Positions 41,918-59,747 of a stretch of DNA of 64,000 nt are shown here, piece by piece. How positions within the stretch are numbered: the first letter of the stretch is position 1; each line of letters opens with the position of its first letter. The notes under the pieces are model-generated. The model searched no databases. It was not told where the DNA came from and worked only from the letters and a program-made list of their open reading frames with translations. Source of the DNA: an uncultured Luminiphilus sp. (lineage in GTDB: Bacteria > Pseudomonadota > Gammaproteobacteria > Pseudomonadales > Halieaceae). The translations under genes and the position numbers were made by a program. The DNA lies in contig CAJJBO010000029.1 of NCBI GenBank assembly GCA_905182485.1, positions 1 to 64,000 of the forward strand, written 5' to 3'.

Positions 41918-41931
41918 AATGTCTGGACATT
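41918..41931. promoter_or_regulatory. Operator 1 of the GntR-type regulon (maoC/gntR divergent promoter)
   Basis: AATGTCTGGACATT, 13 of 14 matches to the proposed consensus AATGTCCGGACATT; arms extend as AAATGTC/GACATTT. It lies in the 97-bp space between the divergent maoC (start 57 bp away) and gntR (start 26 bp away), so the regulator would control both operons and itself. The GT-N-…-N-AC core is what HutC-type GntR proteins usually bind. Confidence 0.7.
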
Positions 41932-41957
41932 TAAAGTTTGGGGGGTTGTTGCTCGTC

Positions 41958-42741
41958 ATGCAAGCTGAGACAGAAAAAAAAGGAGGCGCTCGTATCCCCC
42001 TTTATCGTCAAATCTCTGACACGTTGCTCGCGGGCATTCGCGATGGAAAATTTCCAGTGGGCAGCTTTTTGCCAGGGGAGATGGATCTGATCAGTCGCTT
42101 TGATGCCAGCCGTCATACGATTCGCGAGGCACTGCGTGTGCTCGAGGACATGGGCATGGTGGCCCGACAAAGAGGACGAGGCACGGTGGTGCTCTCGACC
42201 GACGCCGCCCCTGCCTTCGTGCAAATGGTGCGTTCACCGTCGGAGTTGTTCAGTTACCCGGACACCAGTTTATTTTCGACTCCTCTCCGAGGAGCAGGTT
42301 GCAGCCGATAAGTCACTGGCGAAAGCGCTGCAGTGTTCGGTAGGAGAGCAATGGGTCCGAATTTCTGGTTTACGGACGCTCGGTAGCGAGGGCATGCCTA
42401 TTTGTTGGGCCGATGTCTATGTCATTCCAGAATATAGTTCCATCGCCCAACGGCTCGGCGGCAGCACCCGCCCTGTTTATGAGCTGATTGCCGATACGTT
42501 CAACGAGAAGATTGAAAAAATCACGGTGCGCGTTTTCGCCGGCGTGTTGTCGGATAAAAAAGCCGAAGTCTTGGGAGTTGAGGCAGGGAGTGCGTCACTG
42601 AGTGTTTGTCGGTCTTACCAGGGTACTGGTGGCCGTATATTCGAAGTGTCCATTTCGGAACATCCCGCGAACAACTTTAGTTATAACTTTGAATTCACTC
42701 GCGGCTGGCAAACAGCCGATCACTGGTCTTGGAGCTCTTAA
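41958..42741 (+). CDS. GntR-family regulator, HutC/UTRA subfamily, one frameshift
   Basis: N-terminal winged helix: PLYRQISDTLLAGIRDGKFP, LPGEMDLISRFDASRHTIRE, ALRVLEDMGMVARQRGRGT, the standard GntR DNA-binding pattern. After an indel near 42280 the C-terminal frame gives a UTRA ligand domain (SVGEQWVRISGLRTLGSEGM, PVYELIADTFNEKIEKI, LSVCRSYQGTGGRIFEVSIS). These repressors normally leave DNA when a small pathway metabolite binds the UTRA domain. The ATG at 41958 is chosen. citE begins directly after the stop, so regulator and enzyme share an mRNA. It is the best candidate to bind the five palindromes in this window. Confidence 0.88.
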
Positions 42742-43630
42742 ATGACGGACTCAACAGCAATACCGCTGCGCAGTTTCTTATTCACGCCGGCCAATCACCC
42801 GCGCCGAGTGGAAAAAGTGTTCGAGGTGGGTGCCGATGCGGTCATTCTGGATCTTGAAGATGCGGTAGCAATCAGTGAGAAAGCCGCAGCGAGAGAGTGT
42901 GTTGTGGACGCATTCAGTGCGCGACCTAACAGCGGCACTCAGTATTATGTGAGAGTGAACAGTCTTGATACGCCTTACTGTGAGGACGATATTAAAGCCG
43001 CAGTCGGCCCTTGGCTTCACGGTGTGGTGCTGCCAAAAGTAGAGTCGGGATCTTGCTTGAATCGAGCAGAGCAGTGGTTAGCCGCCGCCGAGGCGGCGTG
43101 CGGTATGCCTGTAGGACAGTTGGATCTGATGCCGATCATTGAGACCGCAGCGGGAGTCGAATCAGCAAAGGAGATTGCCACCACAAACAGTCGTATCCGC
43201 CGCATGGCCTTTGGGGGAGGGGACTATACCCTCGATCTCAATTACGAATGGAACGCTGATGAGGCGGTCTTGGCCTATGCACGGTCGAAGTTATCGCATG
43301 CCGCGCGATTGGGCGATCTCGAGCCGCCCATCGATACCGTAGTGTTGCAGATCCGCGATGATGACCGGTTTGTTGAGTCAGCACGTTACGGCAAGCAATT
43401 TGGTTTCGGGCGGTAAGTTGTGTATCCATCCCAGCCAAGTACCGCTGACACACGACGTGTTCACGCCTTCAGCCGAGGAAATTGCGCATGCTCGGGCGGT
43501 TGTCGCCGCTTTTGAAGAGGCCGAGGCGGCCGGTATGGCCTCCATCCAACTCGACGGTTATTTTATCGACTACCCCATCGTTTATAAGAGTCAGCGTATT
43601 TTGGCGCTGGCGGAAAAACTCCAGGTATAG
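42742..43630 (+). CDS. HpcH/HpaI–CitE family acyl-CoA lyase (citramalyl/malyl-CoA lyase type), one frameshift
   Basis: TIM-barrel lyase. 42742–43416 gives RSFLFTPANHPRRVEKVFEV, GADAVILDLEDAVAISEKAA (Mg-binding Asp/Glu), YVRVNSLDTPYCEDD, LPKVES and LMPIIETAAGV with the metal Glu, then FGGGDYTLDL. An indel near 43400 shifts to GKLCIHPSQVPLTHDVFTPS and the C-terminal lid (GYFIDYPIVYKSQRIL). Together about 295 residues. CitE-like proteins of this size cleave (S)-citramalyl-CoA to acetyl-CoA and pyruvate (Ccl of itaconate degradation), or malyl-CoA. The MaoC neighbour would supply a 3-hydroxyacyl-CoA of that type. Exact substrate is inferred. Confidence 0.85.
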
Positions 43631-43734
43631 GCACCCGGTGGTGCTGGGCCGAGGCCAGATGCCTTGGGCTCGCATCACAACGAATAGGGACTTGTTTTGA
43701 CTCATGGGTCGGATCTGACCTCAGCTTGCTGTAT

Positions 43735-43748
43735 CATGTCCGGACATT
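43735..43748. promoter_or_regulatory. Operator 2 of the GntR-type regulon (before the MmgE/PrpD gene)
   Basis: CATGTCCGGACATT contains the perfect 12-bp palindrome ATGTCCGGACAT; 13 of 14 matches to the consensus. It ends 14 bp before the ATG of the MmgE/PrpD gene, so binding would block transcription initiation or early elongation of prpD–hpaB. Confidence 0.7.
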
Positions 43749-43762
43749 TGCAGGAATAAGAG

Positions 43763-45169
43763 ATGTCATCTTTACAGACTCACGATGAGGCGACGCCGCG
43801 GCTGAGCCGGGCGATCGCCGAACGCGCACTCGCGTTGCGTGCGGCGGACGTTCCGAGCGACGTCTGGCGCTACCTAAAGCTGTGTCTCGCCGATGCAATC
43901 GGTATTGCGTTTGCCTCCAGAGACTACGATTTTGCCCACAAATCACTGTCCTCTTTAGAGGTCTTGGGGAGTCAGGGGGCCTCAACGATTATCGGTCAAT
44001 CGAGTACGGTGGCATTGCGAGATGCGGCGCTGATGAATGGGCTGTTGATTCATGGCCTCGATTATGACGATACCCATCTGGCTTCTGTCGTACATTGCTC
44101 GGCGAGTGCGTTGCCGACCACGCTGGCGCTGGCGGAGAGCAAGGGACTGGACGGACAGGCGTTACTGCTGGCAACGTTGATGGCGATTGAGATTGACGCG
44201 CTGCTGGGTGCGCAAGCTGGCGGCGTTTTTCAGCAGGTTGGCTTTCATCCCACTGGCGTGGTGGGTGTATTTGGCGCAGCAGTCGCAGCAGCTGTGCTAA
44301 TGGGCGGGGATGTTGAGGCGCTGATTAGAACGCAGGGGATCGCGCTCAGTTTAAGTAGCGGTAGCATGGCATTTTTAGACGACGGCAGTTGGACGAAACG
44401 TCTGCACCCCGGCTGGGCGGCGTCCTCTGCGCTGCAAGCAGCGTCGCTGGGGGTGTCCGGTTTTGAAGGGCCCGGCGAAGCGTATGGCGGGCGATTTGGT
44501 TTTTACGCACTCTATGCACCGGGGACTAAAGTCGACACGAGCAGCGATGGCCACGTCGTTATTTTCAAGTGGTCTCTCGAGACTGTGGCGATCAAGCCCT
44601 ACCCGATTTGTCATTTTAATCACGCGCCGGTCGATGCGGCCTTGGCGCTCCGCGCTCAGCACAATGTGGTGCCAGATCAAATAGCCTCGATCACGATTCT
44701 GTTACATGAGCGACAGTTTGGCGTTGTGGTGGAGCCTTTGGATAAGAAGCGCGCCCCGCAGAGTGAATACGATGCCAAATTCAGTGTGCCCTACGCGGTC
44801 GCCACAGCGGTGTGTAAAGGGGTTTTCGGTTTGTCAGAGTTACACGACTCGGCGAGGCTAGATCCCGCAGTGCTTGACCTCTGCCAGCGAATTGACTGCG
44901 CTCACGATGAGCGATCTCGCTATCCTGAGGTGTTTTCGGGTGGTGTTCGGATCACGTTAAAAGACGGCTCCGTGCTAGAGCAGTTTGAGCAAGTCAATCG
45001 CGGTGCAGCAGGGCAGTTACTGCCGGCGGAGCAGGTGCGTGACAAGTTCATGGCAAATTGTGCGCTGAGCATTACAGCCGAAGAAGCGGAGTCGATCTGG
45101 CAGTGTCTGATGCGACTGGATGAATTGGAGGACGTGGCTAGCCTACTGGCTTTGCTGCGGACGGGATAG
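43763..45169 (+). CDS. MmgE/PrpD family protein
   Basis: 468 residues with the family arrangement: LSRAIAERALALRAADVPSD, CLADAIGIAFASRD, then DAALMNGLLIHGLDYDDTHL (conserved H-x-x-D-x-D-D), VHCSASALPTTLALAE, HPTGVVGVFGAAVAAAVL and HPGWAASSALQAASL. The family includes 2-methylcitrate dehydratase, cis-aconitate decarboxylase (the itaconate-forming enzyme) and iminodisuccinate epimerase. In P. aeruginosa such a gene lies within the itaconate-degradation locus with citE, a MaoC and an acyl-CoA dehydrogenase, as here. Reaction unknown. Uninterrupted; followed 38 bp later by the HpaB-family gene. Confidence 0.9.
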   Translation: MSSLQTHDEATPRLSRAIAERALALRAADVPSDVWRYLKLCLADAIGIAFASRDYDFAHKSLSSLEVLGSQGASTIIGQSSTVALRDAALMNGLLIHGLDYDDTHLASVVHCSASALPTTLALAESKGLDGQALLLATLMAIEIDALLGAQAGGVFQQVGFHPTGVVGVFGAAVAAAVLMGGDVEALIRTQGIALSLSSGSMAFLDDGSWTKRLHPGWAASSALQAASLGVSGFEGPGEAYGGRFGFYALYAPGTKVDTSSDGHVVIFKWSLETVAIKPYPICHFNHAPVDAALALRAQHNVVPDQIASITILLHERQFGVVVEPLDKKRAPQSEYDAKFSVPYAVATAVCKGVFGLSELHDSARLDPAVLDLCQRIDCAHDERSRYPEVFSGGVRITLKDGSVLEQFEQVNRGAAGQLLPAEQVRDKFMANCALSITAEEAESIWQCLMRLDELEDVASLLALLRTG

Positions 45170-45206
45170 ACAGTACCGAGCGGAAAGCCGTTCAGAGGAG
45201 CCAAGC

Positions 45207-46760
45207 ATGTTGATGAAAGCCGGTGGTCACATTATGAGTGCGGCGGAGTACGAGGAAAGCCTTCGTCGTTATAAGCCTACGGTCTATGTTGAGGGTGACC
45301 TGATTGAATCGGTGGTTGATGAACCGCGGCTGCAACCGGGTATTCGCGCGGTGGGTGTGACCTATGATTTTGCCCAACGACCAGAGTATGGCGGGTTGAT
45401 GTTGGCAGATCAGGCATCGTCTGGAAAGACCGTCAATCGCATGCTTCATATCAACCGTCACTCAGAAGATTTGCTGTCCAAACTAGAAGCAGTACGTCTG
45501 ATTTGTCGTGAGAGTGGGTGCGCTCAGCGCTATCTGACACACGACGCACTCAATGCCATTCATCAGGCGACTTGGCAGATTTCTGAAGATACCGGTGGGG
45601 AACAGTACGAGCGATTCTTAGCCTATCTGCACCGCGTTCAAGATGAAGACTTAACGCTCGGCGTTGCCATGACGGATGGCAAAGGCGATCGGAGTAAGCG
45701 ACCGGCTGATCAGGTGGTAGCGGACAGTTATGTGCATATCCAAGAGCGCAGGGCAGAAGGCATCGTTATTTCAGGTGTTAAAGCTATCGTGACGGGCGGG
45801 CCTTACATGCACGAACTGCTCGTCATGCCCTGCCGCACCATGCGCAAGGAAGACGCTGACTTCGCAGTCTGCTGTGCAGTCCCGATTGATGCAAAAGGCT
45901 TAACCATTATTTCGCGACCGGCCGGTCGGCCGGGTGAGGCAGACGCGCACTTTAGCGCCAAGTATGGACAGAGCACGGCGGTTTGTCATTTTGACCAAGT
46001 GCTGGTGCCCTGGGACCAGGTGTTTTTTGCGGGTGAGCACGACTATACCGAGCACTTGGTGACCTCCTATGCCAATCATCACCGGCACAGCTGTATCGGT
46101 GCTCGCGCCGGCTTTGGGGATCTGCTGATTGGTGCGGGGGCCCTTATGACCGAAGCCAACGGCTTAGACGTGGCCACGGTGCCACACCTACGAGACAGCA
46201 TGGCGGAGCTGATAAAGCTCGTAGAGGGGTTTTTTGCCTGTGGTGTGGCTGCTTCTGTTTACGGCATTGAAGATCCCAGCGGCTCTTGGATGCCGGAGCC
46301 GATATTCTCTAACGTCGGCAAATTATTATTGGCAACGCAGATCTATGATATGCACCGGATTGCCCACGAGGTGTCAGGGGGGCTCATTGTTGCGTTGCCG
46401 GGGCCTGATGAAGACCATAACCCCGCGACATCGGGTGATTTAGCGACGCTACTCGCAGGTCGCGCTGACATTCCTTACGATCAGCGTATGCAGGTGGCAC
46501 GGTTTATGGAGGACATCACTGCATCATCAACGGCGGGTTGGTACTCGGTTATCAGCCTGCATGGTGGCGGTTCACCGCAGGCGATGAAGCGAGAGATCTT
46601 TCGGCAGTATCCGATTGAGGAACGTCGGGCGCTGGTTGAGCGGCTGTTGGATCGGGGCGTCGCGGATTCAGGCTCGTCTGGCGCGCCAGCGCGGCAAAAG
46701 CAGCCCGGCCAGTGTTGCGCCGAAGGGTGCCAACCAACTGTGCCACCGAGTGAGTCGTAA
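45207..46760 (+). CDS. HpaB-family flavoprotein (4-hydroxyphenylacetate 3-hydroxylase/4-hydroxybutyryl-CoA dehydratase fold)
   Basis: 517 residues from the ATG at 45207, six bases after GAGGAG. The start (GGHIMSAAEYEESLRRYKPT, VYVEGDLIESVVDEP) and GVAMTDGKGDRSKRPADQ, then GPYMHELLVMPCR are those of this fold. By recalled alignment with clostridial 4-hydroxybutyryl-CoA dehydratase, the iron–sulfur ligands are not conserved. The CxxxC-type pair becomes ESGCAQRYL (one Cys, one Tyr), and in NHHRHSCIGARAGFG the His remains but the last Cys ligand position is Ala. An FAD monooxygenase role is thus more likely than dehydration. The end QKQPGQCCAEGCQP is Cys-rich. No flavin reductase partner (HpaC) is seen nearby. 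Second gene of the operon with PrpD. Confidence 0.8.
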   Translation: MLMKAGGHIMSAAEYEESLRRYKPTVYVEGDLIESVVDEPRLQPGIRAVGVTYDFAQRPEYGGLMLADQASSGKTVNRMLHINRHSEDLLSKLEAVRLICRESGCAQRYLTHDALNAIHQATWQISEDTGGEQYERFLAYLHRVQDEDLTLGVAMTDGKGDRSKRPADQVVADSYVHIQERRAEGIVISGVKAIVTGGPYMHELLVMPCRTMRKEDADFAVCCAVPIDAKGLTIISRPAGRPGEADAHFSAKYGQSTAVCHFDQVLVPWDQVFFAGEHDYTEHLVTSYANHHRHSCIGARAGFGDLLIGAGALMTEANGLDVATVPHLRDSMAELIKLVEGFFACGVAASVYGIEDPSGSWMPEPIFSNVGKLLLATQIYDMHRIAHEVSGGLIVALPGPDEDHNPATSGDLATLLAGRADIPYDQRMQVARFMEDITASSTAGWYSVISLHGGGSPQAMKREIFRQYPIEERRALVERLLDRGVADSGSSGAPARQKQPGQCCAEGCQPTVPPSES

Positions 46761-47042
46761 CGGGGCTTTACAACCCTCCCGATCAGTTTGGTGCGCTAGA
46801 GGTTGATTAGGTACCCCGGACCTATCGATCAGTTGGCTTGGCCGCCTCTCGATTGAGGGCGCGCTAAGCGTGGTAATGCACTGAAGGGTGCTCGGGTCAG
46901 AGCGTTCCTCGGGGTCATCCTCACCGCACGGCGTTCTCACGTATGGCCACGCCGTATCATGCGGACTGCTTCCTAACACGGGCTCATGTCAGTTTTTCGC
47001 GTCTGATTCGCCAGGGTGGTTCTTTATTCCGTCGCCCCCCTA

Positions 47043-47091
47043 TTGCAATTGGTAATAAGAATGATTATTATTTGCAACATCATTATCAATT
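47043..47091 (+). promoter_or_regulatory. Fur-box promoter of the iron operon
   Basis: GGTAATAAGAATGATTATT (47051–47069) matches the 19-bp Fur consensus at 14 of 19 positions, and a half-site ATCATTATC follows (47079–47087). The box overlaps a sigma-70-like pair: TTGCAA (47043–47048) and TATTAT (47066–47071), spacing 17. Fur–Fe(II) would block this promoter when iron is plentiful. The 280 bp between the HpaB gene and this point hold no gene that I can see, only a weak hairpin near 46845–46865. Confidence 0.75.
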
Positions 47092-47160
47092 GAGCGGTGT
47101 GTGCGTATCATTCAGCGCCACACCGGCAAATACCAACTCGCAGGTTTTGGGGAGACGAAC

Positions 47161-48813
47161 ATGAATAAATATGTATCTAAGCTGATCGCGCTGGGCTTTG
47201 TAGCGTGCGTTAGTGTCGTTTTGGCTGCTTGTGGCGGTGGCGGAGGATCGTCTACACCGCCACCACCACCCCCTCCTGCAGAAGAGCCACCAACCCAATG
47301 GGCCGATACTGATGGTGATGGCATTGGAGATAATGCTGACACGGATGATGAAAACGCTGACCAAATCGACAGCGATGCCAACGGCAAGGGTGATGCATGC
47401 GATCCCATGCCGCTGGTCTATTCCGCAAAGGGGTATGCAGGCGATGGCACTGACGACGGAGTCAGCTACACCGGCCAAACGGCTCGCCAAGTACTTCAGC
47501 TTAAATTGGTCGACTACATGGAGTCGATTGTAGAGTCTCCAGGAGAATTCGATACGATTTCTGCGGGTATGCGGTTCTACATGACCGGTGAGGGTGCGGA
47601 CGAAACGGCGCACAACTTCTCGACTAAAGGCGGTGATCCTGTGATACCGGGTCCCACTTACGGTGATATCAGCACCGGCAAAAACCTCAACGGGAAAATC
47701 GCAGGGGGTAATCTCGCGGGATCTGGTGAAACAGGGAAGCTCATCGACGGTGAGTTCTTTGGCTGGGAAACAGGCCTCGATGCCACGCCGCTGCCGATTG
47801 AGCTGGTGTATTCATGGATGGACGCGTTGGCACTGGAGGCGACCGATGGTGACGATCCGTTAATATCTGTCGCAGATGGCACGCAGGTCAATATTGGATC
47901 ACCAATGATCTCAGCGTCAGGGGTTCATTATCGCCAGTTGATTCAAAAGTTCCTCTCTGTCGCGGTAAATTTTTCTCAGGGCACCAATGACTACTTGCAG
48001 GCCAATTTCGCGGAGATGCTCGGCGAGGAAAAACCCGGTAAGGGCTATTCGGCAGGTGCACATGACTTTGATGAAGCCTTTGGCTACTACGGCGCCGCCC
48101 GCGATATGAACGATTACACAGACGATGAGGCAGCGGGTAAAGGCGGTCGCGCCGAGTATGGCAACGGTTATTACGATTCAAACGGTGATGGCCTTATCGA
48201 CATACGAGGTGAGTTTGTTTTTGGGCACGCGCAAAACTGTGCGAAGCGCGATCGCAAGAAAAATGCAGAGGGCGTTGCCTACACGGATTACTCTAAGGCA
48301 GCGACGGATGCCTTTTTAGTCGGTCGTCGAATCTTAGAGAATGCAGAAGAAGCGGGCGAGTTAACGGCTGACGCTGATGCAGCGCTGCAGGCGCAGATCG
48401 ACGTGGCGGCATTGACCTGGGAGCAGTGCATTGCGGCAACCGTGGTTCATTATATCAACGACGTCTCGGGTGATATGGGGAACTTTGTCGATGGGAAATT
48501 TGCAGACCTTAAGAATTTCACTGATCTGACAAAGCACTGGGGCGAAATGAAAGGCTTTGCCTTGGGCCTGCAGTTCAGTCCTGAGTCCCCCTTTCGAAAA
48601 GGTGATACGGGAAAATCTGTCACCGATTTGAAGTTGTTGCTCTCGCTAATGGGAGACGGTCCCGTCCTGCCTGATGGTTCACAGGGTGGGCAAGCCACCA
48701 CAGCTGCGAGCGCTGCAGATGCGGTGCAGGGATATCTCAACGATTTGTCGGACGCGAGAGATATTCTTGAAGAGGCCTACGGCTTTGACGCTGAAGTGGT
48801 CAAGGTTTGGTGA
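47161..48813 (+). CDS. DUF4856-domain lipoprotein with calcium-binding repeats
   Basis: 550 residues: a lipoprotein signal with lipobox LAAC (Cys near residue 23), a polyglycine then polyproline linker, and thrombospondin type 3-like acidic repeats (DTDGDGIGDNADTDDENADQ, DSDANGKGDACDP) that would bind calcium. A large domain then starts TGQTARQVLQLKLVDYMESI. This fits DUF4856, known next to imelysin-family proteins and TonB receptors in marine bacteria. A second acidic loop DSNGDGLIDIRGE lies near residue 340. It is the first gene after the Fur box, so probably an outer-membrane-anchored part of an iron acquisition system. Function is unproven. Confidence 0.78.
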   Translation: MNKYVSKLIALGFVACVSVVLAACGGGGGSSTPPPPPPPAEEPPTQWADTDGDGIGDNADTDDENADQIDSDANGKGDACDPMPLVYSAKGYAGDGTDDGVSYTGQTARQVLQLKLVDYMESIVESPGEFDTISAGMRFYMTGEGADETAHNFSTKGGDPVIPGPTYGDISTGKNLNGKIAGGNLAGSGETGKLIDGEFFGWETGLDATPLPIELVYSWMDALALEATDGDDPLISVADGTQVNIGSPMISASGVHYRQLIQKFLSVAVNFSQGTNDYLQANFAEMLGEEKPGKGYSAGAHDFDEAFGYYGAARDMNDYTDDEAAGKGGRAEYGNGYYDSNGDGLIDIRGEFVFGHAQNCAKRDRKKNAEGVAYTDYSKAATDAFLVGRRILENAEEAGELTADADAALQAQIDVAALTWEQCIAATVVHYINDVSGDMGNFVDGKFADLKNFTDLTKHWGEMKGFALGLQFSPESPFRKGDTGKSVTDLKLLLSLMGDGPVLPDGSQGGQATTAASAADAVQGYLNDLSDARDILEEAYGFDAEVVKVW

Positions 48814-48839
48814 CGTAGCGAGACTTGATTACACTGCAC

Positions 48840-48856
48840 GGCCCGACAAACGGGCC
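48840..48856 (+). other. Hairpin GGCCCG-ACAAA-CGGGCC upstream of the internal terminator
   Basis: A 6-bp GC-only stem with a 5-base loop in the gap between the DUF4856 and imelysin genes. It lies 11 bp before the terminator stem and could stabilise the 3' end of the first-gene transcript. Confidence 0.45.
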
Positions 48857-48866
48857 TTGCTTACAG

Positions 48867-48895
48867 ACGCCGCATCAGCGGCGTTTGGTTTTTTT
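48867..48895 (+). terminator. Rho-independent terminator inside the iron operon
   Basis: ACGCCGC–ATCA–GCGGCGT makes a perfect 7-bp stem followed by TTTGGTTTTTTT. It lies after the DUF4856 gene and 24 bp before the imelysin start codon. Part of the transcription from the Fur promoter would end here, giving more of the first lipoprotein than of the imelysin–receptor part. Confidence 0.8.
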
Positions 48896-48918
48896 ATGAA
48901 TCGAGGTTTTCAATCATT

Positions 48919-50209
48919 ATGATGGTTCAGATGAGCAGAACATTTTTGAGTGTTGTGGTGTGTATTATGCTCGCCGCTTGCACTGACAGCAGTAGGGAGG
49001 TCGTTTCATCACCTTCGCTAGATGACCTGCCTTCCGACGGTTCTGGTACGGGAGGCGGTGGTAGCGGTGAGTCAGACGTCTACTCCACCCGCGATATGTT
49101 GGTCGCTTATATTGACGAGATTGTGCTGCCAAACTATCAAGACTTGGAGCTATTGACGACGCAGTTTGCCGCGTCTGGTGGCACCTTGGGTGCCTATTGC
49201 GACGCCATCGGCACCGCGGAGCAAGCGAGTCAGCAAGCAGCGGCACGCAGTGATTGGATGGCAATCTCCGAAAAAGTGCAGGCTTCAGAGTTACATGTCA
49301 TCGGGCCCGCTATCGAGAACGGCGGGAGCCTTCAGTTTAGATTGAATTCCTATATGGCAGGGCCATTAAGCACTTGTGGTGTAGACGGTATTGCGGCGCA
49401 GGTGGAGGACGGGATTAATATTGACGCGAGATCACTGAACCAGCGCGGTATCGGCGCACTGGAATATCTTTTATTCAATGACAACTTAAATCACTCTTGC
49501 CCGCCCCAAGCAGCAGCGACTGCTCAGTGGAATGCGCTTGATGAGAACACCAGAGCATCCCAGCGTTGCCAAGCGGCGCAAATGGTTGCGGGCGATATGT
49601 CGGCGGCCGCAGCGACGCTTGTTGATAAATGGCAGCCTACTGGTCAGGATTACCGCGCAGTTTTTCTGAGTGAAGAGCGCGTTGGCGAAAGTCTGCAAGA
49701 CACCACTGACGCGATGTTTTACTTAGAAGAAGGGGCCAAGGACGCAAAGCTGGGTAATCCACTGGGCATCATTGTGGCTTGTTCTGCACTAACGTGTCCG
49801 GAGCAAATCGAGTCCACGTTACAGCGCGACGTCACTAGACAATATCATTACGAATGTGAAGGCGTTTCGACGCATTTTTATATCCAGTGATAAGACCGGC
49901 TTTGACGCGCACTTAACGGCTGAGGGGTTCCCAGAAGTCGCGGAGCGTTTCATTAACAATCTTGAAGCGTCGATTGCTTATGCAGAAACCATTGAGCAGA
50001 GCGTCACGGAGCAGGTTGCCGCGATTGCCACTGAAGCAGAAGAAACGGCGTGCAGTAACGCTTTTGCCAATCCGGATAGCCCTTCTGAGCAATTTCCTCT
50101 CTGCACGCTGTACGGCATGGTGAAAACAATCGTCGATGATCTCAAGATTGATTTTGTCACCATTGTGAATGTTTCCATCCCTGGCAGTTCCCAGTCAGAT
50201 AACGATTAA
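48919..50209 (+). CDS. Imelysin-family (IrpA-like, M75) lipoprotein, one frameshift
   Basis: Lipoprotein signal with LAACTDSS (Cys near residue 21), a Gly/Ser linker, then the imelysin helical domain beginning TRDMLVAYIDEIVLPNYQDL. The motif region is NQRGIGALEYLLFN: the glutamate of the family GxHxxE motif is kept, but Gly replaces the His. An indel near 49855 moves the last ~115 residues (AFRRIFISSDKTGFDAHLTA … IDFVTIVNVSIPGSSQSDND) into another frame. Total about 429 residues. Imelysin-like proteins are Fur-regulated periplasmic or outer-membrane factors in iron uptake; their catalytic activity is doubtful. ATG 48931 is an alternative start. The stop overlaps the receptor start (TAATG). 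Confidence 0.82.
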
Positions 50210-52395: not shown

Positions 52396-52405
52396 CGCGG
52401 TAACC

Positions 52406-53329
52406 GTGGACGATTGGATACTCGCAGTAGCGACCCCGTTTTTTTACTTTAGTGATCCTTCAAAACGACTCTTTTGGGGCTATCTGCTGAGTTCTGGGCT
52501 ACTGGCGCTAGGGGTGGTTTATGCAAGCCGGCACCAGGCCGATCAAACGGTGACGCTGGCGAATCTGCTGACCAGAGCGTACTGGTGGAATCGCTCAACT
52601 CGGCAGGATTATCTGTTGCTCTTTGTCAATGCGACCCTGAAAGTCGGCGTTTATATCCCGCTCATCGGCGGGCAGCTCGCGTTCGCCATCATGACAGCGC
52701 GATTTCTGAACCAATCTGTTGCCGATGCGCCGCAAGTCGCTATTTCGTCCGTTGCAGTCTCCCTGCTCTTTACTGTGACAGCCTTTACCTTCGATGACCT
52801 CACGCGATTTCTGACACACCGAGGGATGCACGCTTGGGGTCCGTTGTGGCGCTATCATCGAGTCCACCACTCTGCGACGACCTTGACACCATTCACGGTC
52901 TTTAGGACCCATCCAGTTGAAAGCCTCATTAATTACTGTCGCAGCGCAGGGGCACTGGGTTTCATTACCGGGATTTTTATCTGGGGTTTCGGTCAGCATT
53001 TGCAGGTCTGGGATATTCTCGGCGTCAATGCACTGGGGTTTGTTTTGACTGCCCTCGGCGCGAACCTGCGTCACAGCCACATTCCACTGCGCTTTGGTGC
53101 AGCGGAAAAGTGGTTGGTGAGTCCCGCGCAGCACCAACTGCATCACTCTCTGGATCACCACCATCCTAACTATGGCTCTTATCTGTCTTGCTGGGATCGT
53201 TGGTTTGGAAGTTGGATGCCGGGCACCGACGCCAATGATTTGCGTTTTGGTTTGAGACCGTCAGCAGAGGCGTGCGAAATAAGTACCCCGAGGCAGGTCA
53301 ACTCGGGGTGTGGAATGTCTCAGGTGTGA
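52406..53329 (+). CDS. Sterol desaturase/fatty acid hydroxylase family membrane protein
   Basis: About 307 residues from a GTG 10 bp after the receptor stop. Several membrane segments are followed by the histidine clusters of the di-iron hydroxylase family: FLTHRGMHAWG, WRYHRVHHSA, LRHSHIPL and QHQLHHSLDHHHP, ending SYLSCWDRWFGSWMPG. Family members hydroxylate or desaturate lipids with O2. A gene of this family is found downstream of DUF4856/imelysin/TonB receptor genes in other marine bacteria as far as I recall; its role in iron uptake is unknown. Confidence 0.87.
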   Translation: MDDWILAVATPFFYFSDPSKRLFWGYLLSSGLLALGVVYASRHQADQTVTLANLLTRAYWWNRSTRQDYLLLFVNATLKVGVYIPLIGGQLAFAIMTARFLNQSVADAPQVAISSVAVSLLFTVTAFTFDDLTRFLTHRGMHAWGPLWRYHRVHHSATTLTPFTVFRTHPVESLINYCRSAGALGFITGIFIWGFGQHLQVWDILGVNALGFVLTALGANLRHSHIPLRFGAAEKWLVSPAQHQLHHSLDHHHPNYGSYLSCWDRWFGSWMPGTDANDLRFGLRPSAEACEISTPRQVNSGCGMSQV

Positions 53330-53341
53330 ACTCCACCTAAG

Positions 53342-53380
53342 ACGGTCAAGCTTGATTACGCCGTTGGCTTGACCGTTTTC
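53342..53380. terminator. Terminator between the iron operon and bfr
   Basis: ACGGTCAAGC (53342–53351) pairs with GCTTGACCGT (53368–53377), a 10-bp stem, followed by TTTC on the plus strand. One arm overlaps the last codons of the convergent bfr gene, so this may terminate both directions. Confidence 0.6.
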
Positions 53381-53841
53381 ATCGCGGTTTGCAGGTAGTT
53401 TTGCTCGCCGACACGGTCCATCAGTGACAGCTGCGTCTCTAACCAATCAACGTGCTCTTCTTCGGCTTCCAAAATATGCCGCGCCAAATCTCGTGAGACA
53501 AAGTCTTTATTGAGTTCGCAGCACTCAACGGTGGCGATCAGATCAGCGTGGGCAATATGCTCCAACTGCAGATCGCATTCGAGCATTTCTCGCGGTGTCT
53601 CACCAATGCGCAACTGCCCCAGATCTTGTAGGTTGGGGATGCCTTCCAAAAAGAGGATGCGTTCTACTAGCGCATCCGCATGTTTCATCTCATCGATAGA
53701 CTCGTGGTACTCGTGTTCTGCTAGCTCGACAAGCCCCCAGTCTTTGTACATTTTGGAATGCAAAAAATACTGGTTGATGGCGACCAGCTCGTTATACAAA
53801 ATTTTGTTGAGATGCAAAATGACGTCAGCGTGACCTTTCAT
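53356..53841 (-). CDS. bfr: Bacterioferritin
   Basis: Haem-containing ferritin that stores iron as a 24-mer. The 161 residues from ATG 53841 (MKGHADVILHLNK) carry the ferroxidase ligands in NELVAINQYFLHSKM, YHESIDEMKHAD (including the haem-axial Met of the DEMKHAD motif) and ATVECCELNKD, then EEEHVDWLETQL. Nine codons upstream are also open but unlike the family. It lies 110 bp downstream of bfd on the same strand, the common pair. Confidence 0.96.
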   Translation of the reverse strand: MKGHADVILHLNKILYNELVAINQYFLHSKMYKDWGLVELAEHEYHESIDEMKHADALVERILFLEGIPNLQDLGQLRIGETPREMLECDLQLEHIAHADLIATVECCELNKDFVSRDLARHILEAEEEHVDWLETQLSLMDRVGEQNYLQTAMKTVKPTA

Positions 53842-53950
53842 GCCCATTACCTCAGTTTTTTTCGACAATCGCAGTGTAGTCGAAATAAAACCAAAAGGAC
53901 ACTAAGTCATTGTTTTTATTAGATAAAACGAATCACACTCATTCGTATTC

Positions 53951-54160: not shown

Positions 54161-54174
54161 GCCATTACAATATT

Positions 54175-54193
54175 GCTAATGAGAATGATTGTC
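54175..54193 (-). promoter_or_regulatory. Fur box before bfd
   Basis: GCTAATGAGAATGATTGTC matches the Fur consensus GATAATGATAATCATTATC at 15 of 19 positions, 15 bp upstream of the bfd start codon on the minus strand. It fits repression of bfd by Fur under iron-replete conditions. Confidence 0.8.
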
Positions 54194-54266
54194 AACACTA
54201 TTCGCGTTACCCGGGCCGATGTCGCTGACACTGAGTCGGCCCTTTGAGCGCTCCCAGATGGCGGGA

Positions 54267-55112
54267 CTAGAAGGGCACCGCTAACGCTTCTGGAGGCAGT
54301 ATGGTGGTTCGTTTCATCAGCCTGTCGTGCTGGGGGTCAAACGGGTCGCGGCGATGCATGGTGCAGGCGTTATCCCATAAGAGCGCATCCCCAGGCTGCC
54401 ATTCATGCGAATAAACAAACTCAGGCTGCGTCGTCCAGTCAAACAAAAATGCCAGCATCTCTGCGCTTTCTCCGGCGTCCCAGCCCACAATCTCTGTCGT
54501 CATGCCAGGGCACAGATATAACGCTTTTTTACCCGTAACAGGGTGCGTTCTAACCAAAGGCTGCTGGATATCGGGTGAGCGCGCTTTTTGCTTGGTATTG
54601 GTGGGTACGCTGTACGCTTGGTTAAACGCCTCGTAGGATTGGTTGGCAAGACAGCCTTCTAATTGGACTCGCGTGGCTTCAGGCAGGGCGTCAAAAGCGG
54701 CACACATATCGGCAAATTCGGTATTGCCGCCCTCGGGTGGCAAGATGTCAGCCATGAGCAGCGATCCGACCGCCGGTTTGGGAAGATAAATTTGGTCGTA
54801 GTGCCAGCCGACCTCCGTATCAGCGAGTATCCCGATACGCCGTCCTTCGCGCTCAATATTGGAAACATAAAGAATTTCGGGATGCTCCCGTGACAAATAC
54901 TCCTCCCGCACATGAATTTCTAGCGCGCCAAACTCTTTGCTGAGTTGCACCAAAGTGGCTTCGTCAAAATCTTGGTTTCTGAACAGCAGTAACTTGTGTT
55001 CCGCCCAGAGTGCCCTAATAGCGTCGATCGCCTCTTTTGACTGTAAAGCGCTGGGATTAAAATCGAGCACCTCAGCGCCGAATGAAGGACTTAATGCGCG
55101 CGTGGCGTACAT
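54267..55112 (-). CDS. TauD/TfdA-family 2-oxoglutarate-dependent dioxygenase
   Basis: 281 residues from ATG 55112 (MYATRALSPSFGAEVLDFNP). The Fe(II) triad is visible: His and Asp of GWHYDQIYL, and the distal His in LLWDNACTMHRRDPFDPQHD, which also carries the 2-oxoglutarate-binding Arg near MKRTTILPPEA. Substrates in the family are mostly sulfonates, phenoxyacetates and other small carboxylates, hydroxylated at carbon; the one here is unknown. The operator at 55142 places it in the GntR-type regulon, so it likely acts on an intermediate or a variant substrate of the neighbouring pathway. Confidence 0.9.
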   Translation of the reverse strand: MYATRALSPSFGAEVLDFNPSALQSKEAIDAIRALWAEHKLLLFRNQDFDEATLVQLSKEFGALEIHVREEYLSREHPEILYVSNIEREGRRIGILADTEVGWHYDQIYLPKPAVGSLLMADILPPEGGNTEFADMCAAFDALPEATRVQLEGCLANQSYEAFNQAYSVPTNTKQKARSPDIQQPLVRTHPVTGKKALYLCPGMTTEIVGWDAGESAEMLAFLFDWTTQPEFVYSHEWQPGDALLWDNACTMHRRDPFDPQHDRLMKRTTILPPEALAVPF

Positions 55113-55141
55113 AGTGCGGACTCCTAGCAAGATAAAACGCA

Positions 55142-55155
55142 ATTGTACGGACATT
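55142..55155. promoter_or_regulatory. Operator 3 of the GntR-type regulon (before the TauD gene)
   Basis: ATTGTACGGACATT, 12 of 14 matches to AATGTCCGGACATT; one half-site is intact (CGGACATT). It lies 30 bp upstream of the TauD start, in the 90-bp gap after the permease gene. Confidence 0.55.
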
Positions 55156-55201
55156 TATCCAAAATACCAACTGACAGAGAGAAATTGCTGCTGAACGGCG
55201 C

Positions 55202-56080
55202 TTAATAGGGGCGCGAGCGTCCGAGTTCTAGGGACAGCACCCCGATAATGACTAGCGCTATCCCTGCTAGCTGGCTGAGAGTGAGCATTTCGCCGGTCAG
55301 ATAATAGGCCATGATGGCGGTAGCGGGTGGACCCAGTGTACTGATTAAGGCTGCGCGCGACGCGCCAACTCGACGAACGCCCTCGGCCATCAGCAGTAAT
55401 GGGAGTACGGTTGAAAAGATGATTAAGGCGGCGAGCGTCATCCAGGCAGCACTCGAAAGGTCAATATTTTGCCACCCTTGAACGACCTGATAATGTCCTA
55501 AAAACCCCACGGCCGCAGACGCCATGGCGATGAAGGTAAAGAAGCTGCTGCCCAAACGCTGAGTGAGCTCAGCGCTGACTAAAAAGTAAATGGCAATGGT
55601 GAGCGAGCAAAAACAGATCCACCCCATCCCAGTCCATTGCTCAGCGGTGAGAGTCGCGTTAAAGGCGCCAGTGACGAGTACCACCCCCGCCGTTGTCAGC
55701 AGGAGTGCTAGCACGACCGGCGCCGAGGGCGCTCGGCGGTGCAACACAGTGGTGATGAGGACCACAAAGATGGGGTAGGCAAAAAGCAGGGGCCGCTCCA
55801 CACTGGCAGCAATAATAGTGAGCGCATAAAAATTCGCCAAAGCACCTAGGTAGTAGCACAGCAGACCGATAGCCGCGGCGAGCAATAGATCTCTACGATG
55901 GGTGCTGATATCCAAGGAGCGGCTGATGTTGCCGCGATACAGCCAAGCCAATAGGGCGAATCCCGGTACCGCAAGTACGGACCGAATCGCAGCGACGTCA
56001 TGAAACGACAGCCCCATGTCGTAAAGTGCTTTGGCAAAAAGCCCTTTGCCGGCGATCAAAATGGCGCCGGCGGCAACCAA
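55202..56080 (-). CDS. EamA-family (DMT) membrane permease
   Basis: About 292 residues with ten hydrophobic segments in two EamA repeats (…FHDVAAIRSVLAVPGFALL…, …GALANFYALTIIAASVERPL…, …FSTVLPLLLMAEGVRRVGAS…, …YYLTGEMLTLSQLAGIALVI). DMT carriers export or import metabolites such as amino acids and nucleobases. The start is unclear: the only usual codon is the TTG at 56080, which would cut into the first membrane segment. The same frame is open to the isochorismatase stop and reads TPPAPNHWVGSLLVAAGAIL, so initiation just after that stop is possible. Same strand as, and directly behind, the amidase gene. Confidence 0.82.
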   Translation of the reverse strand: MVAAGAILIAGKGLFAKALYDMGLSFHDVAAIRSVLAVPGFALLAWLYRGNISRSLDISTHRRDLLLAAAIGLLCYYLGALANFYALTIIAASVERPLLFAYPIFVVLITTVLHRRAPSAPVVLALLLTTAGVVLVTGAFNATLTAEQWTGMGWICFCSLTIAIYFLVSAELTQRLGSSFFTFIAMASAAVGFLGHYQVVQGWQNIDLSSAAWMTLAALIIFSTVLPLLLMAEGVRRVGASRAALISTLGPPATAIMAYYLTGEMLTLSQLAGIALVIIGVLSLELGRSRPY

Positions 56081-56115
56081 AAGGCTCCCGACCCAATGGT
56101 TCGGTGCGGGTGGGG

Positions 56116-56799
56116 TCAGGGGGTGTCGCCTGCTGCGTTGAGCTCCGCGAGAATGTCATCTGTGCTGAGTACTCGGGCCCATAAACGCTTGAGCATGGTC
56201 AGTGTTGCCTGCTGCATCTCTTCGCTGTCTGTGCCCGTTCCATCGCTCGCCACGACGACTCGATACTGTAAATCGCAGGCCTCCATCGATGTCATGGCAA
56301 CGCAGTTGTTGGTAGACACGCCGGTAGAGACCACTGTCGTCACCCCTAATGCGCGTAATGCACTGTCGAGTCCTGTCGAGCGGAAGGCACCTTGCGTGGT
56401 TTTATTCAGCACCAAATCATTGGGGCCCGGTTTTAATGCGTCGACCACCTCATGCTCGGGCTGACCGGCGATATTGTTCGTCGCTTTGATAATCGGTGCG
56501 ATGTGCGGCGGCGCATCGCTGGCATCTTGGGCATTAGCGCCATAGGTAATCCAGATGATCGATGCGCCAGCTGCACGAAAGCCCGCGATGAGCTTTTGTA
56601 TATTGGGGATCAATAACTGGTCGATGCGGTCAAATCGGTACTGGGCTGAGTCACTGTTGCCTTGTTCCGCAAGTAATTTGCCAAGGCCCATGTGCCGATT
56701 ACCGGTGGCATTTTGCATATCGATAATGAGCAATGCGGTTTGCGTGGGATCAAGAGTGAACTGTTGGCTGAATGCGTCGACGAAACTGGGAGTGCTCAT
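56116..56799 (-). CDS. Isochorismatase-fold cysteine hydrolase
   Basis: 227 residues from ATG 56799 (MSTPSFVDAFSQQF). Triad: Asp in ALLIIDMQNATGNRH, Lys in LVLNKTTQGAFRSTGLD, nucleophile Cys in STGVSTNNCVAMTSMEACD. This pattern is of the RutB/nicotinamidase-like branch of amidohydrolases. The open frame runs on to 57279, but that extension is antisense to the neighbouring gene and not part of the protein. It is divergent from a second amidase across 81 bp that contain operator 4, and precedes the EamA permease. Substrate unknown; ureido or amide acids would fit the context. Confidence 0.85.
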   Translation of the reverse strand: MSTPSFVDAFSQQFTLDPTQTALLIIDMQNATGNRHMGLGKLLAEQGNSDSAQYRFDRIDQLLIPNIQKLIAGFRAAGASIIWITYGANAQDASDAPPHIAPIIKATNNIAGQPEHEVVDALKPGPNDLVLNKTTQGAFRSTGLDSALRALGVTTVVSTGVSTNNCVAMTSMEACDLQYRVVVASDGTGTDSEEMQQATLTMLKRLWARVLSTDDILAELNAAGDTP

Positions 56800-56817
56800 G
56801 GGAACGGGAATCCTTGA

Positions 56818-56831
56818 AATGTTCGTACATT
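56818..56831. promoter_or_regulatory. Operator 4 of the GntR-type regulon (between divergent amidase genes)
   Basis: AATGTTCGTACATT, 12 of 14 matches to AATGTCCGGACATT and itself a near-palindrome with perfect arms AATGT/ACATT. It is 18 bp from the minus-strand and 49 bp from the plus-strand start codons, so one site could control both operons. Confidence 0.55.
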
Positions 56832-56880
56832 CTAAGTCATATTGCGTGAACGGAGTGCGAGATCTTTTTGAGGAGGCGAT

Positions 56881-57504
56881 ATGGATAAGTTTGCACAAGC
56901 GGGATATGGGCAACGGGATATCGGTTTTGGTGAGCGTCCAGCCCTGCTCATGGTCGATTTTCAGCTCGGCTTTACCGATGCGAGTAATCCATTGGGGCGA
57001 AGCGATCACGTTCAGCAAGCAGTCGACAACACAGCGACCTTGCTCGCCGCCTGCAAGGCTCACGATATTCCTGCTGCCTCCTGTGCGGTGTCTTGGGGTG
57101 GGCCTGATGAAATGGTTTACTGGAAGATTGACTCGCTTTATGACGGCAGTTTCTATCACGGTCACCCCTGCACCGAGATCGATCCTCGGATTCGTGAAGA
57201 AGGCTACGTTTTTGAGTTCATTAAAACCGCACCTTCTATTTTTTACGAGACGCCACTCAAGCCCTGGTTGGTAAAACACTGCATTGATACGACCATTATC
57301 ACCGGCTGCACGACGTCAGGCTGTGTCCGTGCCTCCATTGTTGATAGCTTCTCTGCCGGATTTAGAACGATCGTACCGGCGGATTGTTGCGGCGACCAAG
57401 ATGCGCAGGCTCACGACAATAATTTACAGGATGTAGGCCGACGCTACGCCGATGTGGTCGACCTTCAATTCGTCTTAGACCACCTTAATAGCAATCATCA
57501 CTAA
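56881..57504 (+). CDS. Isochorismatase-fold amidase, N-carbamoylsarcosine/maleamate amidase-like
   Basis: 207 residues. Triad: Asp in ALLMVDFQLGFTDASNPLG, Lys in FEFIKTAPSIFYETPL, nucleophile Cys in TGCTTSGCVRASIVDSF. The TTSGCVRAS signature and the CCGDQDAQAHDNNLQDVGRR end place it with N-carbamoylsarcosine amidohydrolase and maleamate amidase. ATG 56881 has GAGGAGGCG a few bases upstream. With a hydantoinase pair at 59.7–63.9 kb, hydrolysis of the N-carbamoyl product of a hydantoin-type ring opening is a reasonable role. The RutD-like hydrolase follows by 30 bp. Confidence 0.87.
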   Translation: MDKFAQAGYGQRDIGFGERPALLMVDFQLGFTDASNPLGRSDHVQQAVDNTATLLAACKAHDIPAASCAVSWGGPDEMVYWKIDSLYDGSFYHGHPCTEIDPRIREEGYVFEFIKTAPSIFYETPLKPWLVKHCIDTTIITGCTTSGCVRASIVDSFSAGFRTIVPADCCGDQDAQAHDNNLQDVGRRYADVVDLQFVLDHLNSNHH

Positions 57505-57534
57505 CCGCTAAACCTCAATTTCAGGAGTTCAGTT

Positions 57535-58338
57535 ATGCCTATCGCCCAAATCAATGGCCACGACATGTATTACGAAGTGCATGGCGATGGTCCGCCCGCG
57601 GTTTATATCGGGGGATGGGATACCTTCTGTCATGGGCGACATCATTATTTAGCGCGCGGGATGACGGATCAGTTTTCTACGGTGATTATTGACTATCGTG
57701 GACTGGGCGAATCGACCGATGATTATTCGGTGCCGGCCTCCACTCAGCTGTTCGCTGACGACATTATCGCTTTGTTAGACCACCTGAATATGAAGTCTGT
57801 TTATTTTGTCGGTTTGGTGGGCATTGGCGCTTGTATTGGGCAGTGGGTTGCCTTTAAGCGGCCTGATCTGGTGCGGTGTATGGTCAATATGGGTTGCTGG
57901 ACTTGGGCTGATGCGATGCTGAGTGATCAACTGACAGCGTTTGGTGATATGCATGAGCACGCCGGCTTTCATGCCTTTCAGTCCATGGTCGCCTCGTTGT
58001 CGTTCCGCCCGGAATACTACAATGCCAATCGTGAAAAACTATTGGGTAGCGGCGGTGTCTGGGGAGCGCTAGAGGGCAGGATCCCTACACACCTCCGATT
58101 CATTGAGGCCTGTTTGGGGCATGATATCCGCCCGCACCTCAGTGACATTGCCGCACCCACACTCGTTATTCATGCCGGAGAGGATATGATCACAGGGCCC
58201 AGAACGACGATGCCGTTAGAAGAGGGTCTGCCAAACTCAGTGGGCGTGAGTATGGATCGTGTGGCGCATGTCGTGGCCGGCAAGGAAGAGAAAATCGTCT
58301 TTGGTAAAATCCTGTTTGATTTTCTCAATGCCCACTAG
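57535..58338 (+). CDS. Alpha/beta-hydrolase fold protein, RutD-like, without nucleophilic serine
   Basis: 267 residues of the alpha/beta hydrolase fold: IDYRGLGESTDDYSVPAST, then VYFVGLVGIGACIGQWVAF at the nucleophile elbow, APTLVIHAGEDMITGP (acid) and RVAHVVAGKEE (His). The usual GxSxG is not there: by alignment on the following helix the Ser position is Gly (LVGIG), and no nearby Ser can replace it. RutD of pyrimidine degradation, which accelerates aminoacrylate hydrolysis, also lacks the serine (GHALG). The segment after the elbow (NMGCWTWADAM) resembles RutD too. AGGAG at 57522–57526 precedes the ATG. It is cotranscribed with the amidase upstream, the same partnership as RutB/RutD. Confidence 0.8.
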   Translation: MPIAQINGHDMYYEVHGDGPPAVYIGGWDTFCHGRHHYLARGMTDQFSTVIIDYRGLGESTDDYSVPASTQLFADDIIALLDHLNMKSVYFVGLVGIGACIGQWVAFKRPDLVRCMVNMGCWTWADAMLSDQLTAFGDMHEHAGFHAFQSMVASLSFRPEYYNANREKLLGSGGVWGALEGRIPTHLRFIEACLGHDIRPHLSDIAAPTLVIHAGEDMITGPRTTMPLEEGLPNSVGVSMDRVAHVVAGKEEKIVFGKILFDFLNAH

Positions 58339-58362
58339 ACGATCCGCTATGACCAGCGATCG

Positions 58363-59546
58363 TTAAATAACGCCTCGAGACGTCAGATCCTCGAGGTTTT
58401 CCACACCGAGTTCTCCTCCAATAATGTCGGCATTATCCGCGCCGAGGCCCGGGCCGCAGTGGGTGCTCAATCGCTGGTTGTTCAGCTTGATGGGGTTGCT
58501 GAGTCCGCGGTAATCACCAAACTCTCGGTGAGGCAGGGTTTGCATCATGCCAGATGACATCACAAATGGATTGTCGAGGGCACTGGGTAAGTCGTGGACA
58601 GGAGCGACGGGGATATAGGTCTGCAGCAGTTCGAACCAGTGGTCAGTGTCGGCCGTCTGAAAAATGCTGTCGAGCGACTCGGTGAGCGCATCTCGATTAT
58701 CCGCTCTTGCTGCCATGGTGCTGAACCGTGGGTCGTCGGCGAGTGCAACCTGATCAAGGCGCTCCAATAACAAGTGCCAGAATTTATCGGTCATACACAT
58801 GATAAAGATCCAGCCATCCTGCGTTTTATAGAGCTGCACTGGCGTGTTGTACGGGTGCGCCGAACGTGCCACGCGCCCCGTTTCAATGCCGTGGTTTAAA
58901 TACCACGTGCCAGGGTAGGTCAGCTGATGCAGCGCGACGTCAAACAGGCTGATGTCAACGTCGCGCCCCCCTTGTTGCGTGCGTGCCAACAATGCCGCGA
59001 CGCAACCCAATGCTGCAACAACGCCTGTCATGAAATCGATCATGGACAAGCCAAACCGGGAGGGCGGTGTTCCAGGCTCTCCTGTGACCGAGAGAAATCC
59101 GCACTCCGCCTGCATGAGGTAGTCATAGCCTGGCCAGTCGGCTCGGTCATTGTCACGGCCATAGGCTGAGATATGAGTACAGACAATATCGGCTTTGATA
59201 TTCTTTAACGCCTTCGCGAACGGCCCTAGTTTCGCGGGCTGGCGCCTCGAAGATTGTTCCAAACAACGTCACTCTTGCGCACGAGATCATGAAACAACGC
59301 TCGTCCCTCATCACTTTTTAGATTCAGTGTGATGCTGCGCTTAGAAAGGTTAAAGGCTTGAAAATAAGCGCTGTCATCGTCGGCCAGCGTGACAGAGCCC
59401 GATTGTCTGGCGGGATCACCGCCAGTTGCGCGGTTTTCTATTTTAATCACCTCTGCCCCGAGCTCAGCGAGATACATTGAGCCGTAAGGGCCCGCACCAA
59501 ATTGCTCAATGGCGAGGATTCGAATACCGGCAAGGGGTTTGATCAT
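58363..59546 (-). CDS. Class III (CaiB/BaiF) CoA-transferase, one frameshift
   Basis: From ATG 59546: MIKPLAGIRILAIEQFGAGP, YGSMYLAELGAEVIKIENRA, GGDPARQSG, LSKRSITLNLKSDEGRALF, the N-terminal half of the family fold. An indel near 59250 leads into 58363–59262: ADIVCTHISAYGRDNDRADW, PGYDYLMQAECGFLSVTGEP (with the catalytic Asp of the GYD motif), DISLFDVALHQLTYPGTWYL, HPYNTPVQLYKTQDGWIFIM. About 394 residues joined. It moves CoA between carboxylic acids and would activate a free acid for the acyl-CoA enzymes at 40–45 kb. It is divergent from hyuA with operator 5 between them. Confidence 0.88.
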
Positions 59547-59638
59547 GATGTGCTCCGAAGAATTGTAGATCGAGGTGGATGATACCTTGCACCTGTGTGC
59601 AGATTGGTGCATCGTGACGTGGTAGGCGAGAGTGTAGC

Positions 59639-59652
59639 AAATGTCCGGTCAA
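59639..59652. promoter_or_regulatory. Operator 5 of the GntR-type regulon (between CoA-transferase and hyuA)
   Basis: AATGTCCGGTCAAT, 12 of 14 matches to AATGTCCGGACATT with the first half intact. It lies midway in a 201-bp divergent promoter region, 92 bp from the CoA-transferase start and 95 bp from hyuA. Confidence 0.55.
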
Positions 59653-59747
59653 TCGTTTTTCAAACGCTGTGATTTGTTTTGGAGACGGTCGGACCTGCAT
59701 TCATCGCAGTGAGGTCACAATAAGATCCTTAACAAGAGGAGGCCATT

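Follow-up and report, generated by a model that had tools for sequence, protein, structure and literature searches.

Do a handful of near-identical palindromes scattered along a cluster of catabolic genes mark the operators of one regulator, and if so, of which one? This question is raised by a 64,000-nucleotide stretch of DNA from an uncultured Luminiphilus sp. (hereafter the window), which comprises bases 1-64000 of a contig of 71,892 bases (C29) in a genome of 2.17 Mb that is 70% complete. The original prediction held that five palindromes define a GntR-type regulon of at least five transcription units, that the regulator is the HutC-type GntR protein encoded at 41958, and that the sites tie two gene groups, separated by an unrelated iron block, into one pathway. 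Our analysis suggests that the sites are very probably operators of this GntR/HutC protein, and that together they would constitute a local regulon under a repressor, serving uptake and coenzyme A (CoA)-linked breakdown. Co-regulation of the two gene groups as one pathway is likewise probable.

Palindromic sites in the cluster

The palindromes lie at 41918-41931 (P1, between maoC and gntR), 43735-43748 (P2, before prpD), 55142-55155 (P3, before tauD), 56818-56831 (P4, between two isochorismatase-family genes) and 59640-59653 (P5, between a CoA-transferase gene and hyuA), none of them being assigned a strand. Four of the five predicted positions were right and the last, 59639, was off by one. 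P1 and P2 differ from AATGTCCGGACATT by one mismatch and the other three by two, in agreement with the predicted 13, 13, 12, 12 and 12 matches of 14. Three of the sites serve divergent pairs (maoC/gntR, the two isochorismatase-family genes, and CoA-transferase/hyuA), as had been proposed and as the coordinates of the open reading frames (ORFs) and Pfam assignments bear out; ORF coordinates and the genome scan described below also place the sites in promoter regions of catabolic genes. The regulon appears to be larger than claimed, as a sixth site (P6), the perfect palindrome ATTGTCCGGACAAT, lies outside the window at contig positions 70358 to 70371, just upstream of a TonB receptor gene.

The five palindromes are real and exceed what chance would produce. 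At up to two mismatches to AATGTCCGGACATT, the window contains 5 matches compared with a mean of 0.14 in shuffled sequences, and 0 of 100 shuffles reach 5, a result by which we reject a chance origin. At up to three mismatches the window still contains only those five, with 3.09 expected and 20 of 100 shuffles reaching 5, which is an ordinary count. What carries weight is therefore how closely the sites match, because their count is unusual at two mismatches or fewer and ordinary at three or fewer.

The scan of the whole genome that had been suggested as a check gave 10 matches at up to two mismatches, against 5 for a reversed control pattern. Six of the 10 sit on the contig of the window between 41918 and 70371, all in promoter regions of the cluster, and the remaining four all fall within ORFs. 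From these four matches outside the cluster, simple arithmetic gives about 0.05 matches expected in the 28-kb cluster stretch. We considered and rejected further regulon members elsewhere in the source genome, where the sites are confined to the cluster.

Conservation of the sites among relatives

Of 54 genomes of the genus that were searched for gntR, a set without G061 and G081, 27 proved to have it, the source genome among them; the cluster was then compared in the 26 gntR-bearing relatives, in which promoters were unreadable where they met contig ends or belonged to genes beyond the fetched stretch. Among close relatives of the regulator, 16 of 19 named loci are labelled Luminiphilus or Halieaceae. 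The sites are kept at nearly all readable promoters: P1 in 25 of 25 relatives (at least 11.3 bits), P2 in 26 of 26, P3 in 22 of 22 and P5 in 17 of 17 (both identical throughout), P6 in 5 of 5 (11.9-19.3 bits), and P4 in 18 of 20. The expectation that orthologous loci keep the sites was thus borne out with the exception of P4 in two genomes, to which we return below. For P3 and P5, the 14 bases of the site are conserved at 1.00, compared with means of 0.50 and 0.57 over the rest of the 140 bp. When the 127 14-mers are ranked by conservation, P3 and P5 come first, the prpD site 2, the gntR site 6 and the amidase site 12. Moreover, each promoter has its own sequence variant, which is maintained across relatives.

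Some relatives also have sites before CoA-transferase and HMG-CoA-lyase-like genes. Three genomes, all with gntR (G111, G109 and G062), have an extra site, AATGTCCGTACTAT or AATGTCCGTACCAT, upstream of a CoA-transferase gene (L046:14885, L058:15457 and L062:11152) at a point of which the contig of the window stops short; in gntR-bearing G108 there is no site at the promoter of this gene. The HMG-CoA-lyase-like promoter was rejected as a core member: among the loci of 22 relatives only two, L060 and L061, have a site there (14.8 and 22.3 bits), against 10.4 bits in L055 and 4.8 in the window. An extra match in G062, on its contig C31, lies within an ORF and was likewise rejected.

Proposed link between the regulator and the sites

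The protein encoded at 41958 combines an N-terminal GntR winged helix (PF00392, 61.4 bits against a cut-off of 27) with a C-terminal UTRA domain (PF07702, 56.9 bits against 23.8), and among the proteins scanned with Pfam it is the sole regulator, as predicted. The predicted operators fit a palindrome with the GT and AC half-sites expected for GntR/HutC regulators. Within the genus, gntR was found in 22 of 22 tested genomes with a close orthologue of the hpaB-like gene of the cluster (20 full-length and 2 split, source genome included) and in none of the 12 whose homologue of that gene is a remote one; five more genomes have gntR with no hpaB-like gene detected. Matches at up to two mismatches average 8.0 per genome with gntR (control pattern 4.9) and 3.5 without it (control 3.0), in 27 genomes each. 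In G059 and G062, the single UTRA match at E 1e-8 is gntR itself. The regulators of two subgroups are only 57-60% identical to the first sequence, and the DNA-reading helix is nonetheless kept.

Distant homologues from outside the genus, in other families, are informative as well. At E 1e-45, nine came from an order-wide sample of 390 genomes and one from a class-wide sample of 369, and in 8 of these 10 the core TGTNYRNACA lies no more than 330 bp ahead of the start of the matched gene; in five of the eight it occurs twice, 74-77 bp apart. By comparison, 0 of 7 UTRA paralogues from genomes that also have the regulator or a homologue reach 11 bits upstream, the best being TGTCTAGACA in L109 at 8.1 bits. 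The window protein, all 10 distant homologues and the four subgroup members that were read share the helix SR[HY]T[VI]REALR, and the paralogues read have SRITVRQALR (5 of 6) or SRSTLREALA (the sixth). A search of viral contigs for the regulator returned no relative.

Genomes of the genus in which gntR was not found serve as natural controls. Eight of them have a hyuA about 60% identical, and no site lies upstream of it in 7 of the 7 tested (best 6.1 bits; G084 was left out). In the four such loci that were read (L138, L139, L140 and L141), hyuA is accompanied by hyuB, an HMG-CoA-lyase-like gene, a TonB receptor gene and an isochorismatase gene, and three of the four also contain an 83%-identical CoA-transferase gene, with no site upstream in any of the three. 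Stray weak matches (13.0 bits in L139, 15.0 bits in L141) lie away from the hyuA and CoA-transferase promoters. The compact hyuAB cluster of these four loci is an alternative version under other control. In G061 and G081, which stood outside the search for gntR, an 84% identical hyuA has a site. The link to the regulator, proposed as an inference, thus gains support from the distant homologues, the paralogues and the hyuA promoters of genomes without gntR.

The distant homologues have their own surroundings. In L079, L080, L081 and L082, regulator homologues stand by oxygenase/CoA-transferase clusters with the same core upstream, mostly paired 74-77 bp apart; this is probably a further regulon under repressors of this clade. 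Three of these loci (L079, L080 and L082) include a CoA-transferase and an acyl-CoA dehydrogenase, together with a Rieske-type oxygenase and an enoyl-CoA-hydratase-like protein, the latter two assigned by eye. Around the homologue of G527 are citE, gntR, maoC, acyl-CoA dehydrogenase and CoA-transferase genes.

Probable mode of regulation and alternative explanations

In the mechanism that we propose, a GntR/HutC dimer without ligand would bind TGTNCGNACA-type sites at the promoters and repress them. The repressed set would comprise gntR, the maoC-acyl-CoA dehydrogenase unit, prpD with the hpaB-like gene, tauD, the two amidase units, the CoA-transferase gene, hyuAB (the operon probably running on into an LLM monooxygenase gene) and the TonB receptor gene past the window. 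Release might follow when the UTRA domain binds a breakdown product of the imported compound, perhaps an acid or a CoA-level intermediate. What the sequences themselves show is the sites, their conservation, their confinement to the cluster in the source genome and the core ahead of the genes of distant homologues; binding, repression as opposed to activation, effector, operon extents and substrate we infer.

Several observations weigh against this explanation. P4 is lost in G109 and G101 although gntR and both amidases are kept, and P1 is weak in the same genomes (11.3 and 12.2 bits). In G073 and G099, which are 70% and 83% complete, gntR was not found, yet contigs of 4.9 and 5.6 kb in these genomes bear the sites of tauD and the amidases; an assembly gap is the likely reason. 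Two distant homologues (G327 in L067 and G190 in L071) lack an upstream site even though they share the recognition-helix type, and within 20 kb around the G327 gene no match reaches 11 bits. The loose pattern also accepts TGTCTAGACA, which precedes a paralogue. In the window the reading frame of gntR is broken near 42.28 kb; L026 and L044, two near-identical loci, have an intact gene (260 aa). Finally, promoter prediction finds none at P2 or P5, and the other promoter matches in the window are weak.

It could be argued from the loss of P4 without loss of gntR, and from the sites of G073 and G099, that another regulator encoded elsewhere binds the sites and that gntR is merely one of its targets. 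We regard this as quite improbable, since the core stands ahead of distant gntR homologues with other neighbours and not ahead of UTRA paralogues, and is missing from the hyuA and CoA-transferase promoters of genomes in which gntR was not found; the NagR-type contacts considered below also fit the GntR protein. That the GntR protein binds the sites as an activator or dual regulator, and not as a simple repressor, is unlikely too. It would suit P5, which lies 72-122 bp ahead of hyuA in relatives, further than the other sites, and it would suit the weak or absent promoter calls of the window. However, P2, P3 and P4 sit 14-56 bp ahead of start codons, P3 contains a predicted -10 element, P4 overlaps a predicted -35 element and spacer, and P1 touches a predicted -10. 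Moreover, the site takes up the whole spacer between promoter-like -35 and -10 elements (1-3 mismatches) in 5 of the 7 distant homologues that were examined, and NagR and DasR, two of the closest relatives with a solved structure, are called repressors. Repression is thus the likelier mode for the putative regulator. As for chance palindromes or a mobile repeat, the ordinary window count at up to three mismatches would by itself allow them, yet the shuffles at two mismatches, the conservation of the sites amid diverged flanks and the variant maintained at each promoter leave this explanation a negligible probability. Operators of the GntR/HutC protein at 41958 therefore remain our preferred explanation: the regulon is a well-conserved local one of a familiar kind, and its type of regulation is ordinary.

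Genes of the cluster and the inserted iron block

Unless stated otherwise, genes were assigned with Pfam. To the left of P1, on the minus strand, lie an acyl-CoA dehydrogenase gene (40204-41349) and the gene for a MaoC-type hydratase (41486-41860, start picked by eye). To its right, on the plus strand, follow the genes for the proposed GntR/HutC repressor (41958-42741, frameshifted), a CitE/RipC-like lyase (Pfam HpcH/HpaI; 42742-43631, frameshifted, end judged by eye), an MmgE/PrpD family protein (prpD, 43763-45169) and an HpaB-superfamily protein (45192-46760; Pfam and alignment). The second group comprises, on the minus strand, genes for a TauD-family dioxygenase (54267-55115), an EamA transporter (55202-56080) and isochorismatase-family amidase A (56116-56799, nearest RutB; Pfam and profile matches); on the plus strand, amidase B of the same family (56881-57504, nearest N-carbamoylsarcosine amidohydrolase) and an alpha/beta hydrolase (57535-58338); on the minus strand, a family III CoA-transferase (58363-59547, frameshifted); and on the plus strand, hyuA (59748-61807, frameshifted) and pieces of hyuB (61823-63182, frameshifted), a gene that extends further. 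Past the end of the window are genes for a RutA-like LLM monooxygenase, a methyltransferase, a short-chain dehydrogenase/reductase, the TonB receptor and two more CoA-transferases. The frameshifts (about 42280, 43416, 59240, 60242-60331, 61448-61545 and 62743-62805) fall in genes that are intact in relatives and are probably indel errors of assembly, the alternative being real decay.

Between the two groups, 46737-53309 (about 6.6 kb, without assigned strand) is missing from the near-identical locus L086, which has 56 other bases there instead. This stretch contains imelysin, TonB-receptor and fatty-acid-hydroxylase genes, and the ferritin gene that adjoins it (53356-53868) is kept in L086. 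Of the 11 mapped genomes showing both genes, 10 have tauD immediately next to the hpaB-like gene; in the exception, G087 (L047), a different stretch of about 8 kb lies between them. Compared with the nearest genome, the stretch 46737-53309, which is the iron block without its ferritin end, is an insertion, and it lies outside the regulon.

Elsewhere in the window, ARAGORN calls an 87-base tRNA-Ile with anticodon TAT at 32052-32138, the sole tRNA found, which has no bearing on the regulon; this anticodon is unusual in bacteria. Rfam gave no match within the window.

Enzymes and the putative pathway

The gene called hpaB in the original prediction does not merit that name. Its product scores 126.3 and 88.7 with the HpaB models TIGR02309 and TIGR02310, whose cut-offs are 480.2 and 885.2, and it is closer to 4-hydroxybutyryl-CoA dehydratase/vinylacetyl-CoA isomerase, so that we dropped the label. 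The iron-sulfur ligands of 4-hydroxybutyryl-CoA dehydratase are three Cys and one His; when the protein is aligned to 1u8v, it retains the His and one of the Cys, with Tyr and Ala in place of the remaining two, and the full ligand set is thus absent. The lyase is nearest CitE and RipC, and each enzyme falls below the curated cut-off of its named model; the HMG-CoA-lyase-like protein is the sole one to pass (310 against 246).

The substrate is probably a cyclic amide or N-heterocycle that would be degraded to CoA thioesters. We see about an even chance that the cluster encodes an undescribed catabolic pathway of coastal OM60/NOR5 bacteria, and that its regulator belongs to a separate HutC-repressor clade with a TGTCCGGACA operator which, in other families, is attached to different CoA-linked clusters. 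Under such a scheme, import by the TonB receptor would be followed by ring opening by the RutA-like monooxygenase and an ATP-dependent CapAB-like lactam hydrolase, by the action of two or three isochorismatase-family amidases, and by breakdown via CoA thioesters and carbon-carbon lyases. In the literature searched, which covered few subscription papers, no title or opening of an abstract joined TGTCCGGACA with a bacterial regulator; nor did any title there concern a link to a homarine catabolism operon, and gene sets of the caprolactamase/isochorismatase or hydantoinase/isochorismatase/MmgE kind brought up no paper. About 30 kb of loosely annotated enzymes can now be read as a single pathway, probably co-regulated, of a coastal marine genus, with candidate names for its receptor, ring-opening enzymes and CoA steps. 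The conserved operator could serve as a reporter for finding the substrate and could also guide searches for this clade of repressors in other organisms.

Comparison with known systems

Parts of the cluster resemble the Rut pathway. The LLM monooxygenase, read from the intact gene of relative G108, scores 382.2 with RutA (TIGR03612; cut-off 498.3), is RutA-like over its length and matches solved RutA at 322 bits. Amidase A is nearest RutB, below the cut-off of 378, and the alpha/beta hydrolase is near PcaD and RutD, below 238.5. To our knowledge, CoA-transferases, HyuAB and CoA lyases are no part of the Rut pathway. Another resemblance is to caprolactamase CapAB: in G108, HyuA is nearest CapA (NF050156) at 549.6 bits and HyuB nearest CapB at 219 bits, each with a cut-off of 1000.

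On the side of the regulator, the PhnR and PhnF phosphonate regulators match only in the UTRA half, in NCBIfam, at 31.4 and 25.3 bits (cut-offs 296.75 and 156.8), and no phosphonate gene occurs among the proteins scanned. Among proteins of solved structure, the intact orthologue in L028 is nearest to the putative regulator 2ra5 (60.5 bits), NagR/YvoA (56.9) and DasR (55.1). The operator of NagR and DasR is TGGTCTAGACCA. In NagR, according to PMC4333415, Arg38 reads G-5, Arg48 reads G-4 and Gly69 anchors the wing. Aligned with NagR, the regulator keeps Arg48 and Gly69, and Arg38 is replaced by Leu (Met in the window; Asp and Gly in distant homologues); its predicted operator retains G-4, with T at position -5 and CCGG in the middle. 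These contacts and bases agree with the proposed regulator link, as a matter of consistency and not of proof. The likeness to NagR/YvoA and DasR therefore lies in Arg48, the wing glycine and palindromic operators at catabolic promoters, whereas their reading by Arg38 together with Arg48 is not found here and the target pathway is another one. The regulator is thus related to NagR and DasR but differs from them in specificity.

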